Of a stretch of DNA of 64,000 nucleotides, positions 43,155-46,775 are shown piece after piece. A model generated the notes under the pieces. The model did not search any database. It worked only from the letters and a program-made list of their open reading frames with translations, and was not told the DNA's origin. Position 1 is the first letter of the stretch. The number at the start of each line of letters is the position of its first letter. Made by a program: the position numbers and the translations under genes. The stretch spans positions 1-64,000 of the forward strand of contig NZ_AUBN01000003.1 in NCBI RefSeq assembly GCF_000429265.1, given 5' to 3'. Source of the DNA: Actinomyces gerencseriae DSM 6844 (GTDB taxonomy: Bacteria > Actinomycetota > Actinomycetes > Actinomycetales > Actinomycetaceae).

Positions 43155-43581
43155 GACGTTCCTTCCGGTCGGACCGCGCGTGCTCCCCGCGCGCACCGGC
43201 GCGGTCGGGCCTCGGCCCGCCGGGGGCGCGCGACATGGGGGCGCCGGGCGCTGCTGGGCACGGGCCCGGCGCGCCGAACTCCTTGCGGTCGCGGTGCGGC
43301 AGCCGATCGTGAATCGTGTCCCGCACCGGGCCGGAGGGCCTGCGGGACCAGGCTGCGGGACGACCGGTCAGCCATGGACTCCGCCAGGCTAGCCCCTTGT
43401 CGCGTGATGCGCCGCCGGGACCGGGACCCGAGCGTCGTGGTGGTGGTCGAACTCACGCACTCGGGCGCGTCTCGTGCTCTCCCGCTCACCGATGATCGTC
43501 GCCCGTCCGCCCCGCCGCGCTCCCGCGGGCCCGCCGCGCGCGACCCTACGCGCCCCGCGCCGGCGGCCTACGCTTGTTCTC
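43155..43581. other. 427-bp divergent gap without a recognisable gene
   Basis: This region separates the helicase from the ferritin-like gene. I see GC-rich sequence with several short GCGGGAC-type repeats near 43317-43360 and a TACGCT -10-like element at 43569-43574, which would give a leaderless start for the plus-strand gene. The frames that cross it look like shadows. The helicase mRNA may have a long 5' leader, as in other DEAD-helicase genes, but I find no known RNA motif. Confidence 0.4.
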
Positions 43582-44235
43582 ATGACCAGCCCGATGCCCC
43601 CCTATCCGTCGTCGTCCCCCGCCTCCCACGTGCAGTCCGTCCTGGGCATGGCCGCATTCATGTGCTCCATCGCCTGCACGCGCTACGCCAAGGACGCCGA
43701 CAAGGCCCCCTCGATGGGGCCGCGGGTGGAGCTGCTGCGGATGAGCGCCGAGCGCGTGGCCGCCTTCGACGCCGTCAACGCCCTCGCCCGGGAGGCCGGG
43801 GTGGACGCCAGCGCCGGTGCCGAGCCCTTCATCGGCTCCCTCGGGGACTTCGACGAGCGACTGCGGCCGTTGGACTGGGAGGAGCGGCTGATCAAGACCT
43901 ACCTCGCCTTCGGCCTGCTCCTGGACTTCTCCGAGGCGCTGGTGGACGCCCTGGACGAGCCGCTGCGCACAGCGGTGCTCGACGTGCTCGGGGCGGACCG
44001 CTTCGGCGCCATGGCCGCCACGGAGCTTCTCGACGACGTGGCCGGCGATCCCCAGCTCGCCGCCCGGCTCGGCCTGTGGGGACGACGGGTCGTGGGGGAG
44101 GAGATCGGCACCCTCCGGCGGATGCTGTCGGCGCATCCCGAGCTCCTGGGCGGCGGCGCCGATGCGGAGGCGCTGTACGAGGTCCTCTCGCAGGGGGCGA
44201 CCAGCCGCATGCGCGGCCTGGGCCTGCGGGCCTGA
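43582..44235 (+). CDS. Ferritin-like fold protein (MiaE-like/Rv3210c-type), function unknown
   Basis: The 217-residue helical protein contains RVELLRMSAERVAAFDAVNA, DFDERLRPLDWEERLIKTYL, AFGLLLDFSEALVDALDEPL and GRRVVGEEIGTLRRMLSAHP. The repeated E...E/H-type positions on long helices suggest the ferritin-like four-helix bundle of tRNA hydroxylase-like proteins, but I cannot pin a full di-iron set of ligands. It neighbours a DEAD helicase in many actinobacteria, which suggests an RNA-related role. The ATG follows a TACGCT box by 7 bases. Confidence 0.75.
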   Translation: MTSPMPPYPSSSPASHVQSVLGMAAFMCSIACTRYAKDADKAPSMGPRVELLRMSAERVAAFDAVNALAREAGVDASAGAEPFIGSLGDFDERLRPLDWEERLIKTYLAFGLLLDFSEALVDALDEPLRTAVLDVLGADRFGAMAATELLDDVAGDPQLAARLGLWGRRVVGEEIGTLRRMLSAHPELLGGGADAEALYEVLSQGATSRMRGLGLRA

Positions 44236-44408: not shown

Positions 44409-44451
44409 GGGGGAAGAAGAAGAGAGAAGAGAAGAAAGAGGAGCAAGGAGG
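44409..44451 (+). promoter_or_regulatory. 43-base purine-only tract ending in a strong ribosome binding site
   Basis: From 44409 to 44451 the sequence is almost entirely A and G and ends in AAGGAGG, a full anti-SD match 7 bases before the ATG of the RNA repair gene. It is AT-richer than its surroundings and contrasts with the leaderless starts of many neighbours. It may favour translation or bind a protein; its function is not known. Confidence 0.6.
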
Positions 44452-44458
44452 TGCGCGC

Positions 44459-46723
44459 ATGCGCACGATGTTCATCCTGCGCGGGGCGCCCGGCGCGGGC
44501 AAGTCGACTCTGATCCGCCGGCATCGGCTCGGCGATCTCGCCATCGGTCTGGACGACTTCCGACGCCTGTACTCCACTCCCTTCACGGACCTGGACGGCG
44601 TTCCCACCCTGTCCATGACCTTCGGCGCGGAGAAGCAGGTCGTGACGGCCTTCAGGGCCGCCGTCGCCAACCGGATCCGGCAGGGCGGCACCCTTCTGCT
44701 GGACTGCACCAACCCGACGCGCAAGAGCTACCGGGAGTTCGCCTCCCTGGCGCGGCGCTGCGGCTACGAGGTCCGCGTCATCGACGTCCAGGGCGAGCTC
44801 GACGACGCCGAGCTGGTCGAGCGCAACGAGTCCCGCCGCGGCGAGATCGGATACGTCGAGCCGCGCGTCGTGACGGACATCGCCGCCCGCGTGCGGGCCG
44901 GGGCGGGCTCGGTCGTCGAGCCCGTCGTGGGCATGGACGACGTGCGCCGCCTCAGCACCGTCGAGGAGATCGACGCCACCGGCTACGAGCGCCTCGTCAT
45001 CATCGGCGACGTGCAGAGCTGCTCCGGGGCACTGGCCCGGGTCAAGGAGCGCTTCGGCGGCTGGGACCCCGCCACCCTGTTCGTCTTCGTCGGCGACCTG
45101 TTCGACCGGGGTCCCGACGCCGCGGGCGTCTTCGACCTCATCGCCGGTGAGACCGGCGAGGTGCCGGACAACGTCGTCCTCGTCGAGGGCAACCACGACG
45201 AGCACCTGCGCATGCTCTGCTCCGACGTGCGCGGCGGCAGCTGGCCGGACACGCGCGAGTCCCGTCGCCGGATCCTGGACTCGGGGCGGAGCAACGGGGA
45301 CATCGAGGCGCTCCTGGCGCGCATGGTCCCGCTGGCCGGTCTGCGCTTCGCAGGCGAGCACGTCCTGGTCACCCATGCGGGCCTCGACCCGGCCACCATC
45401 GACCGGATCGTCACCGAGCGCGAGGATGGCCTCCTGGCCTGGGACCTCACGGAGGTCCCCATGCTCCAGCTCCTGCTCGGCTCCTCCTGGCGGTCCGCCA
45501 CCTTCCAGGGGCGGTCCAGCTACGAGAGCGCCGTCGAGACCCGCCTGTCCCACCCGCGGATCCTCCAGGTCCACGGGCACCGCAACGGCACCCGCTCCGA
45601 GGAGCCGGGGCCCGCGCGGGCCGCGCCCAACGTCTACACCCTCGAGCACGGGGTCGAGCACGGCGGCCATCTCGCCGTCCTGCAGATCGACGCCGACGGC
45701 ACGCGCACCCTTCACGCCTTCGAGGAGGATCACCCGGCGGTCGCCGGCGCGGCCGCCGACCCCACCAGCCTGGTGGCGCGCATGAGCGCCCACCCCGAGG
45801 TCCGCGTGCGCGAGGTGACGGGCCTGCCCGGCGTGCTCGCCTGCAACTTCTCCAGGCGGGCCTTCACCAAGCGCCTGTGGGACGAGACCAGCTGCAGGGC
45901 CCGCGGCCTGTTCCTGCGCGCCGCGGACGCCGCGGTCGTCGCCCGCGGCTACGACAAGTTCTTCAACATCGGCCAAGCCCCGGGCCCGGCCAGCGCGGAG
46001 GAGATCGTGCGCGTCGGCGTTGGACGGCCCCTGACCGCGCGCCGCAAGTGGAACGGCTACCTCGCCATCGTCAGCGTCATCGATGGTCGGCTGCGCGTCT
46101 TCTCCAAGTCCGGCGTCACACCCTTCTCCGAGCACGCGGAGGCCCTCCTGGTCGCTCACGTGGGGGATCGGGCCGACGAGCTCGCGGGGATCATCGCCGG
46201 GGCCGGAGTCTCGCTCACCTTCGAGGTCATCAGCCGCCGCGATCCCCACATCATCGACGAGGGCGATGACAAGGTCGTGCTGCTCGACGCCATCCGCAAC
46301 CAGGAGGACATGGAACTGGTCGATGACCTGCGCCTGCGCCTGGCCGACGACTTCGGCTTCGTCTCCCCGGAGGTGGAGGTCCTGTCCGAGGCCGCGGACG
46401 ACGGTGCGACGGCGGCGCTGGCAGCCCGGTCCCGCGTCGCCGAGGAGCGAGGGGAGGAGGGATTCGTCATCACCTACGCCGACGGCGCGATGGCCAAGTA
46501 CAAGTCCCGGGTCTACAGCGAGATCAAGGCCTTCCGCTCCCAGCTGTCCCGTTACCTGGAGGGGGGCCGGGTGCGCGCGACGGGGCCGGGCGCCGGGCTC
46601 ATGCGCACCTACCTCGATAGGGCCGCCGGCGAGGGCTCCGGCGGGGGGCTCGTCGGGGACTTCATGGTCGATGGCCTGATCGGGCCGGTGATCGACATCC
46701 CGGCACTGGTCGCCGCCATGTGA
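44459..46723 (+). CDS. Three-domain RNA repair enzyme: polynucleotide kinase - metallophosphatase - Trl1/Rnl1-like RNA ligase
   Basis: The 754-residue protein has three modules. Residues 1-170 are a P-loop 5'-OH polynucleotide kinase (LRGAPGAGKST at 7-17; GLDDFRRLY; LLLDCTNPTRKSYREF; lid ERNESRRGEIGY). Residues 178-400 are a calcineurin-type phosphatase (IIGDVQS with D184, VGDLFDRGPDA, EGNHDEH at 243-249, VTHAGLD, VHGHRNG). Residues 460-754 are an RNA ligase: ARGLFLRAADAAVVARGYDK then FFNIGQ, nucleotidyl motif KWNG with K530, EVISRRDPH, EGFVITY with E667, and KYK at 680-682. The ligase resembles fungal tRNA ligase Trl1 and T4 Rnl1 more than the ligase of bacterial Pnkp/Hen1. It should heal and seal broken RNA in one polypeptide. 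No hen1 gene is adjacent. Confidence 0.88.
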   Translation: MRTMFILRGAPGAGKSTLIRRHRLGDLAIGLDDFRRLYSTPFTDLDGVPTLSMTFGAEKQVVTAFRAAVANRIRQGGTLLLDCTNPTRKSYREFASLARRCGYEVRVIDVQGELDDAELVERNESRRGEIGYVEPRVVTDIAARVRAGAGSVVEPVVGMDDVRRLSTVEEIDATGYERLVIIGDVQSCSGALARVKERFGGWDPATLFVFVGDLFDRGPDAAGVFDLIAGETGEVPDNVVLVEGNHDEHLRMLCSDVRGGSWPDTRESRRRILDSGRSNGDIEALLARMVPLAGLRFAGEHVLVTHAGLDPATIDRIVTEREDGLLAWDLTEVPMLQLLLGSSWRSATFQGRSSYESAVETRLSHPRILQVHGHRNGTRSEEPGPARAAPNVYTLEHGVEHGGHLAVLQIDADGTRTLHAFEEDHPAVAGAAADPTSLVARMSAHPEVRVREVTGLPGVLACNFSRRAFTKRLWDETSCRARGLFLRAADAAVVARGYDKFFNIGQAPGPASAEEIVRVGVGRPLTARRKWNGYLAIVSVIDGRLRVFSKSGVTPFSEHAEALLVAHVGDRADELAGIIAGAGVSLTFEVISRRDPHIIDEGDDKVVLLDAIRNQEDMELVDDLRLRLADDFGFVSPEVEVLSEAADDGATAALAARSRVAEERGEEGFVITYADGAMAKYKSRVYSEIKAFRSQLSRYLEGGRVRATGPGAGLMRTYLDRAAGEGSGGGLVGDFMVDGLIGPVIDIPALVAAM

Positions 46724-46746: not shown

Positions 46747-46775
46747 GCCGCGCCCCGCTTCTCGCGGGGCGCGGC
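46747..46775. terminator. Bidirectional stem-loop after the RNA repair gene
   Basis: GCCGCGCCCCGC and GCGGGGCGCGGC form a 12-bp perfect stem with loop TTCTC, between two convergent genes (RNA repair enzyme and DUF3107). Confidence 0.8.

Follow-up and report, generated by a model that had tools for sequence, protein, structure and literature searches.

What might a bacterium do with a protein that joins a polynucleotide kinase, a phosphoesterase and an RNA ligase recalling that of fungal tRNA ligase? The question is raised by a gene at 44459..46723 (plus strand) in a 64,000-nucleotide stretch of Actinomyces gerencseriae DSM 6844 DNA, referred to here as the window. The open reading frame (ORF) encodes 754 amino acids and is supported by the ORF list, Pfam and orthologues. 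The original prediction, made from the letters alone, had read it as a 5'-OH polynucleotide kinase, a calcineurin-type phosphatase and an RNA ligase in one polypeptide, and Pfam confirmed this with three domains, all above their cut-offs: AAA_33 (residues 4-129, 1.5e-14), Metallophos (178-319, 1.9e-10), and RNA_lig_T4_1 (481-681, 1.7e-19). The kinase part (residues 1-165; 44459..44953, plus strand) has the P-loop GAPGAGKST at residues 9-17, and its K15, D32, and R35 are conserved across the alignment of relatives, hereafter the family. It is followed by the phosphoesterase part (residues 178-376; 44990..45586, plus strand) and the ligase part (residues 440-754; 45776..46720, plus strand). The ligase motifs that had been named are all present, with ARGLF at residue 481, ARGYDKFFN at 495, and KWNG containing K530. 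As argued below, the protein is likely to be a self-contained, one-chain RNA break-repair enzyme with a ligase of the Trl1 clade.

A profile built from 21 ligases of the family was searched against the PDB. Fungal Trl1 ranked first (9qw7, 126.7 bits, 9.2e-36, profile positions 14-308 of 312), and four further Trl1 sequences scored 107-113 bits. T4 Rnl1 was next with 58.1 bits (6.8e-15) over positions 51-270, which is the core only, and no Pnkp chain was among the 15 matches. The Trl1 match, in extending to profile position 308 of 312, takes in the C-terminal domain of Trl1. A hidden Markov model (HMM) of 89 ligase rows (the family rows minus Variovorax, plus the stand-alone ligase L118) scored the two Trl1 sequences at 137.7 and 116.0, T4 Rnl1 at 69.0, and 14 other Rnl1 types at 59.0-135.8. 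The same HMM matched 0 of 14 Pnkp ligase domains, and hhalign gave 0.6% for the family against Pnkp ligases.

Phylogeny agreed with the profile searches. We aligned 107 ligase rows, of which 61 were used in a quick tree and 58 in a careful tree; near-duplicates and the Variovorax row were left out of both, and L051, L088, and L100 also out of the careful tree. Of the 15 stand-alone Rnl1-type rows 12 were present (L115, L117, and L124 were absent), and L084, L103, and L112 yielded no ligase row. The careful tree separated the 46 rows of Trl1 and the family from the 12 rows of Rnl1 types with support of 100/100, Trl1 being represented by two sequences only. The window row lay within a 10-row actinobacterial clade (98/89). 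Grouping the family as a single clade that excludes Trl1 gave p = 0.328 in the approximately unbiased test, and placements of Trl1 inside and outside the family both fit. Judged by sequence and by the tree split, the ligase part is a member of the Trl1 clade, and the claim that it is nearer to Trl1 than to the ligase of bacterial Pnkp was borne out by the PDB profile search and the lack of any match among the 14 Pnkp domains. The Trl1 ligase domain has reportedly been named Rnl6 in one paper.

The Trl1 clade also has a recognizable phosphate pocket. In the structure of ctTrl1, a sulfate bound by Arg334, Arg337, His227, and Asn150 was interpreted by its authors as a substrate phosphate, and two of these residues, Arg337 and His227, are described as essential (PMC6592678). 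The window counterparts are N532, which is the Asn of KWNG (46046..46057, plus strand), aligned with Asn150 and two residues beyond the predicted adenylylation site K530; H597 (46247..46249, plus strand), aligned with His227; and K690 and R693 (46526..46537, plus strand), aligned with Arg334 and Arg337, with Lys replacing Arg334. All were placed by alignment, and H597, K690, and R693 by the PDB profile match as well. Of the 89 family ligases, 85 have the tetrad N-H-(K/R)-R, as do both Trl1 sequences (2/2), and none of the 15 stand-alone Rnl1-type ligases does; T4 Rnl1 has D-I-H-K at these positions. Near-duplicates are included in these counts and in those for motif I below. The four exceptions in the family were Variovorax, with Ala at the last position and an adjoining Arg, and L051, L088, and L100, with Asp for Asn (L051 also with Leu for Arg). 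L118 has the tetrad and falls inside the family on the tree. Because the family and Trl1 share ancestry, the tetrad is one inherited trait and not independent proof of function. The sulfate in Trl1 is said to stand for the 2'-phosphate.

In the phosphoesterase part, D184, D213, R217, N245, H246, H306, and H374 are retained in nearly all aligned members; of 92 proteins not gapped at H246, the histidine of the GNH motif, 91 keep it. The exception among the conserved catalytic positions of the three parts is Q186 (codon CAG, 45014..45016, plus strand) in motif I, which reads GDVQS in the window protein and GD(V/I/L)H in most phage relatives. The motif I His is a metal ligand. Gln was found at this position in 15 of 16 Actinomycetaceae proteins, the remaining one, from A. 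oral taxon 448, having His (CAC for CAG). Likewise, 2 of 12 phage and plasmid proteins with a phosphoesterase domain had Gln, these being the Tsukamurella and Erythrobacter plasmid proteins. Among the IMG/VR matches listed, Gln occurred in 3 and His in 60 of the 63 proteins with either residue in the column, and the IMG/VR fragment L112 reads GDLQG. Rows with DxQ did not cluster in one place on the ligase tree: they comprised the actinobacterial clade, G024 together with G179, the viral rows L060 and L080, L091, and Erythrobacter. Since the change recurs at one position while the other active-site positions are kept, it looks like tuning rather than decay. The H189D mutant of CthPnkp reportedly yields 2'-phosphate ends that yeast Trl1 can seal. 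As described in PMC3407115, one study tied the GNH histidine to 2',3'-cyclic phosphodiesterase activity.

These features suggest a reaction sequence. The substrate would be RNA, probably the anticodon loop of a tRNA, whose cleavage by a metal-independent nuclease leaves a 2',3'-cyclic phosphate and a 5'-OH. This 5'-OH would be phosphorylated by the kinase part, the calcineurin-type part would open the cyclic phosphate, and the ligase would take AMP (adenosine monophosphate) onto K530 and then seal the ends. In the version that we prefer, which is not secure, the phosphoesterase, with Gln186 in place of His, would open the cyclic phosphate and leave a monophosphate, and the ligase would accept the remaining 2'-phosphate through N532, H597, K690, and R693, as fungal Trl1 is thought to do; a requirement for 3'-OH/2'-phosphate ends marks the activity of Trl1. 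The tetrad and the motif I Gln both fit such a fungal-type route that keeps the 2'-phosphate, which we put forward tentatively.

The protein is not confined to this bacterium. Its order of kinase, phosphatase, and ligase, unlike the ligase-kinase-cyclic phosphodiesterase order of Trl1, was upheld by Pfam, but the order is no novelty, as phages carry the identical one. The 3' healing part at the center of the window protein is of the calcineurin type, whereas the Trl1 cyclic phosphodiesterase is of the 2H type. PHROG 8238, named 'RNA ligase', aligned with residues 1-702 on positions 1-686 of 737 (E = 1.8e-100) and has the same three domains in the same order; the tetrad was common to the phage rows examined. 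Its members here include Staphylococcus and Brochothrix Herelleviridae, SPbeta-type Bacillus phages, and others. They differ from the window protein in sequence (25-27% identity in the 60 rows listed), in having the motif I His nearly throughout, and in residing on phage genomes. The fusion is already known from phage annotation and PHROGs. The baculovirus ligase-kinase-phosphatase likewise holds these three activities in one polypeptide, in a different order, and a 2016 survey of RNA repair systems may already describe the architecture. Our literature search of titles and abstract openings, which did not cover that survey, found no Trl1-type ligase named in phages or bacteria. Within titles and abstracts, what appears to be new is the Trl1 kinship with a shared anion pocket, together with the His-to-Gln change in the actinobacterial branch.

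Relatives were numerous on mobile elements. In the phage collection 131 records matched, 99 of them covering at least 80% of the protein and all below 60% identity, and 19 plasmids matched, 8 covering at least 80%. At least 252 relatives were confirmed in IMG/VR; from the best 80 of these, on which our IMG/VR counts rest, 79 loci were kept, 61 with a frame of at least 690 amino acids. The residue counts took the shorter of two L084 ORFs, leaving 60 loci of this length there. An even order-level sample of 347 genomes gave 55 matches to the whole-protein profile, of which 2 were full-length (both from the same genus as the window), 1 was a ligase match (G435), and 52 covered the kinase-phosphatase part only. 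Among 396 genomes of the phylum the ligase profile matched 4 ligases, one being that of the window; the other three stand alone and have the residues of Rnl1. The order and phylum searches scored no more than 2 to 5 candidates per genome, so some members may have been missed. A split form was present on a Bifidobacterium plasmid, where a phosphoesterase gene adjoins a kinase-ligase gene (L041:3565-6068; Pfam). G435 has a kinase-ligase gene by Pfam (L191:9102-12385) near an ORF that looked phosphoesterase-like by eye and had no NCBIfam match. A second RNA ligase, of PF09414, lies at L191:14577-15662 in G435.

The gene was single copy in the 3.42-Mb source genome, on contig 2. Matches at E = 1e-10 or better were found in 16 of 213 genomes of the family Actinomycetaceae. 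Seven genomes of the genus have orthologues (the window genome, A. massiliensis, A. israelii, A. oral taxon 448, A. dentalis, G034, and G013), and since the six others share 61-83% identity with the window protein, the gene is not a product of chance. A MiaE_2 (tRNA-hydroxylase-like) gene is directly upstream in the window (43531-44232), and a DEAD helicase gene also lies on that side. On the downstream side two genes encode UvrD-helicase and PD-(D/E)XK domains, and by gene order we take their products to be AdnB-like and AdnA-like. The MiaE_2-like gene was immediately 5' of the ligase gene in 6 of the 7 genomes, and about 9 kb upstream in A. massiliensis; the AdnB-like gene followed in 6 of 7. 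Three (L203-L205) of 30 same-genus loci examined with 1.5-kb flanks had the MiaE_2-like and AdnB-like genes together without the ligase gene between them, so the gene has been gained or lost at this site. Ratios of nonsynonymous to synonymous substitution (dN/dS, NG86) for the window gene against its six orthologues were 0.36-0.53. For comparison, three pairs of the DEAD helicase gave 0.20-0.23, and two pairs of the MiaE_2-like gene gave 0.27 and 0.49. These values indicate purifying selection on the ligase gene, weaker than that on the helicase.

Other carriers were more divergent. The copy in G089, from another genus, was 53-64% identical and split across two contig ends, and the remaining eight carriers had copies at approximately 27-40% identity; by their coordinates, those of G024, G025, and G036 were distant from the MiaE_2-like gene. 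The P-loop was intact in the longer ORFs of G025 and G036 (L182 and L183), and rows L013, L014, L032, and L033 lack the P-loop end owing to the start codon chosen. The G024 copy (L184:8757-10937) had a third-position guanine plus cytosine (GC) fraction of 0.47, with 14 of 19 other ORFs there at 0.70 or more, and is perhaps a recent arrival. G129, G130, and G131, and a second protein in G132, had the kinase and phosphoesterase without the ligase (Pfam was checked for G129). Such proteins at L188, L189, and L190 (G129, G131, and G132) also have DxQ and ordinary-looking neighbors, among them, in both L188 and L190, an ORF that by eye resembles IleS; whether they perform end healing without sealing is a question they pose.

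Around the window gene, a Shine-Dalgarno-like aaggagg (44445..44451, plus strand) stands 7 nucleotides 5' of the ATG, and a GC hairpin with a 12-bp stem and no T-run after it (46747..46775, plus strand) lies shortly 3' of the stop codon. A convergent DUF3107 gene is found 3' of the hairpin. The MiaE_2-like gene was found in 46 of 46 same-genus genomes searched. In G013, CRISPR-associated genes (Cas_GSU0053 and Cas3-like) follow the orthologue on the same strand (L187:2534-8094) instead of the AdnB-like gene. No Rfam RNAs or tRNAs were found in the 64,000-nucleotide window, and the PADLOC search for defense systems was negative.

The enzyme might repair tRNAs cut by anticodon nucleases. The source genome has a BREX-1 locus (BrxC, PglX, PglZ, and BrxL; G000:C6:208500-228000, L242) that includes an 805-amino acid AAA_13 protein. 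This protein has a CxxC motif and, on a count made by eye, Arg-X3-Glu-X44-His with a Ser before the His. The RloC motif is given as Arg-X3-Glu-X36-52-His (PMC2610378), and because the protein fits it, we consider the protein a candidate RloC anticodon nuclease. However, AAA_13 proteins of the PrrC/RloC type were not enriched in carriers, being above the cut-off in 2 of 16 compared to 34 of 197 other genomes; therefore, we claim no link between the nuclease and the ligase. No RtcB was found in the window genome.

The same three parts could also carry out T4-type chemistry, in which the phosphoesterase strips the end to a 2',3'-OH, the ligase seals as T4 Rnl1 does, and the tetrad only grips the RNA backbone. 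T4 Rnl1 and T4 Pnkp follow the same repair logic from separate genes, and the T4 phosphatase is of another type, according to the passage cited (PMC3400036). We find this a plausible alternative: DxH was intact in 60 of the 63 IMG/VR relatives noted above, no KptA partner was found, and Pfam places the window ligase in RNA_lig_T4_1, as it does the T4 enzyme. Membership of the narrower T4 Rnl1 family was rejected (TIGR02308, 17.7 bits against a cut-off of 242.25). However, T4-type chemistry leaves the absence of the tetrad from every stand-alone Rnl1-type ligase, the grouping with Trl1 through its C-terminal part, and the loss of the motif I His from all but one Actinomycetaceae protein unaccounted for. 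The preferred route, which keeps the 2'-phosphate, has several results weighing against it in turn. KptA/Tpt1 was found neither in the window genome nor in any of the 16 carriers, the only two of the 213 Actinomycetaceae genomes with a match (G035 above the cut-off and G182 below it) being non-carriers. It was likewise missing from all 36 records of phages, plasmids, and viruses that hold relatives, some of which are fragments. With KptA missing, nothing known here could take away a 2'-phosphate scar, and on this route the scar would either persist or be cleared by some other enzyme or process. Nor was any linked nuclease gene recognized. The tetrad alone is no proof of the route because most phage relatives have it together with the motif I His, and one syntenic orthologue, that of A. 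oral taxon 448, has His. Two scores count against the ligase kinship with Trl1: on the family HMM, the stand-alone Rnl1-type L113 reached 135.8 bits, about the Trl1 level (the next Rnl1 type scored 94.1), and hhalign ranked a 15-row Rnl1 profile (264.6, 229 columns) above a 2-row Trl1 profile (211.8, 286 columns). In passages of PMC3407115, the GNH histidine was unimportant for 2',3'-cyclic AMP in that paper's own enzyme, and CthPnkp with its His gave only 2'-AMP from the same compound. A His, therefore, need not mean a bare end, and the effect of His versus Gln may be smaller than supposed.

The Gln could instead mean that the phosphoesterase is inactive in DxQ proteins. Phosphorylation and sealing would then be all that the Actinomyces enzyme does, with the cyclic end opened by a different enzyme. 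The loss of a presumed metal ligand from nearly all Actinomycetaceae proteins would fit, yet the seven other active-site residues are kept and DxQ recurs across the ligase tree with the rest of the site preserved, and we regard inactivity as unlikely. That the protein is a plain Pnkp of the Pnkp/Hen1 system is very improbable. Bacterial Pnkp has the order kinase-phosphatase-ligase, and its kinase and calcineurin-type phosphatase are related to those of the window protein, but TIGR04075 matched residues 4-251 only, scoring 45.6 bits where the cut-off is 750, and left the ligase part, which is unrelated by profile, unmatched. A better match to the Pnkp profile had been named in the original prediction as grounds for giving up the Trl1 parallel, and the search found none; its observation that no Hen1 methyltransferase is adjacent also held, there being no Hen1_L match anywhere in the genome. 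Captured phage cargo, serving anti-defense tRNA repair without a host role, would explain why phages and plasmids, including some phage-like plasmids, hold many of the relatives, and why the third-position GC of the G024 copy is below that of most ORFs around it. It fits poorly with one chromosomal neighborhood in seven genomes of the genus and with purifying selection, and we consider it doubtful. A repair enzyme working for the host, perhaps by the fungal-type route, would be our preferred reading.

The authors of a Tpt1 structure described the wide presence of Tpt1/KptA in bacteria as a longstanding conundrum. Our findings describe a family of yeast-like RNA ligases, in many phages and some bacteria, in which a candidate phosphate pocket is conserved. 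We suggest, with reservation, that phages and some bacteria may carry fungal-type sealing, with internal 2'-phosphate junctions and the Trl1 pocket, tuned in Actinomycetaceae and a few others by the His-to-Gln change. The family could then be a source of the RNA substrate that bacterial KptA/Tpt1 has lacked, as well as a bacterial or phage group of relatives that may have given rise to the Trl1 ligase. It provides bacterial and phage relatives of the fungal tRNA ligase, its orthologues differ naturally in having His or Gln, and the Tpt1/KptA puzzle becomes directly assayable by asking whether family enzymes need and leave a 2'-phosphate. In this way the family might account in part for the retention, in many bacteria, of an enzyme that takes a fungal-style 2'-phosphate off RNA.

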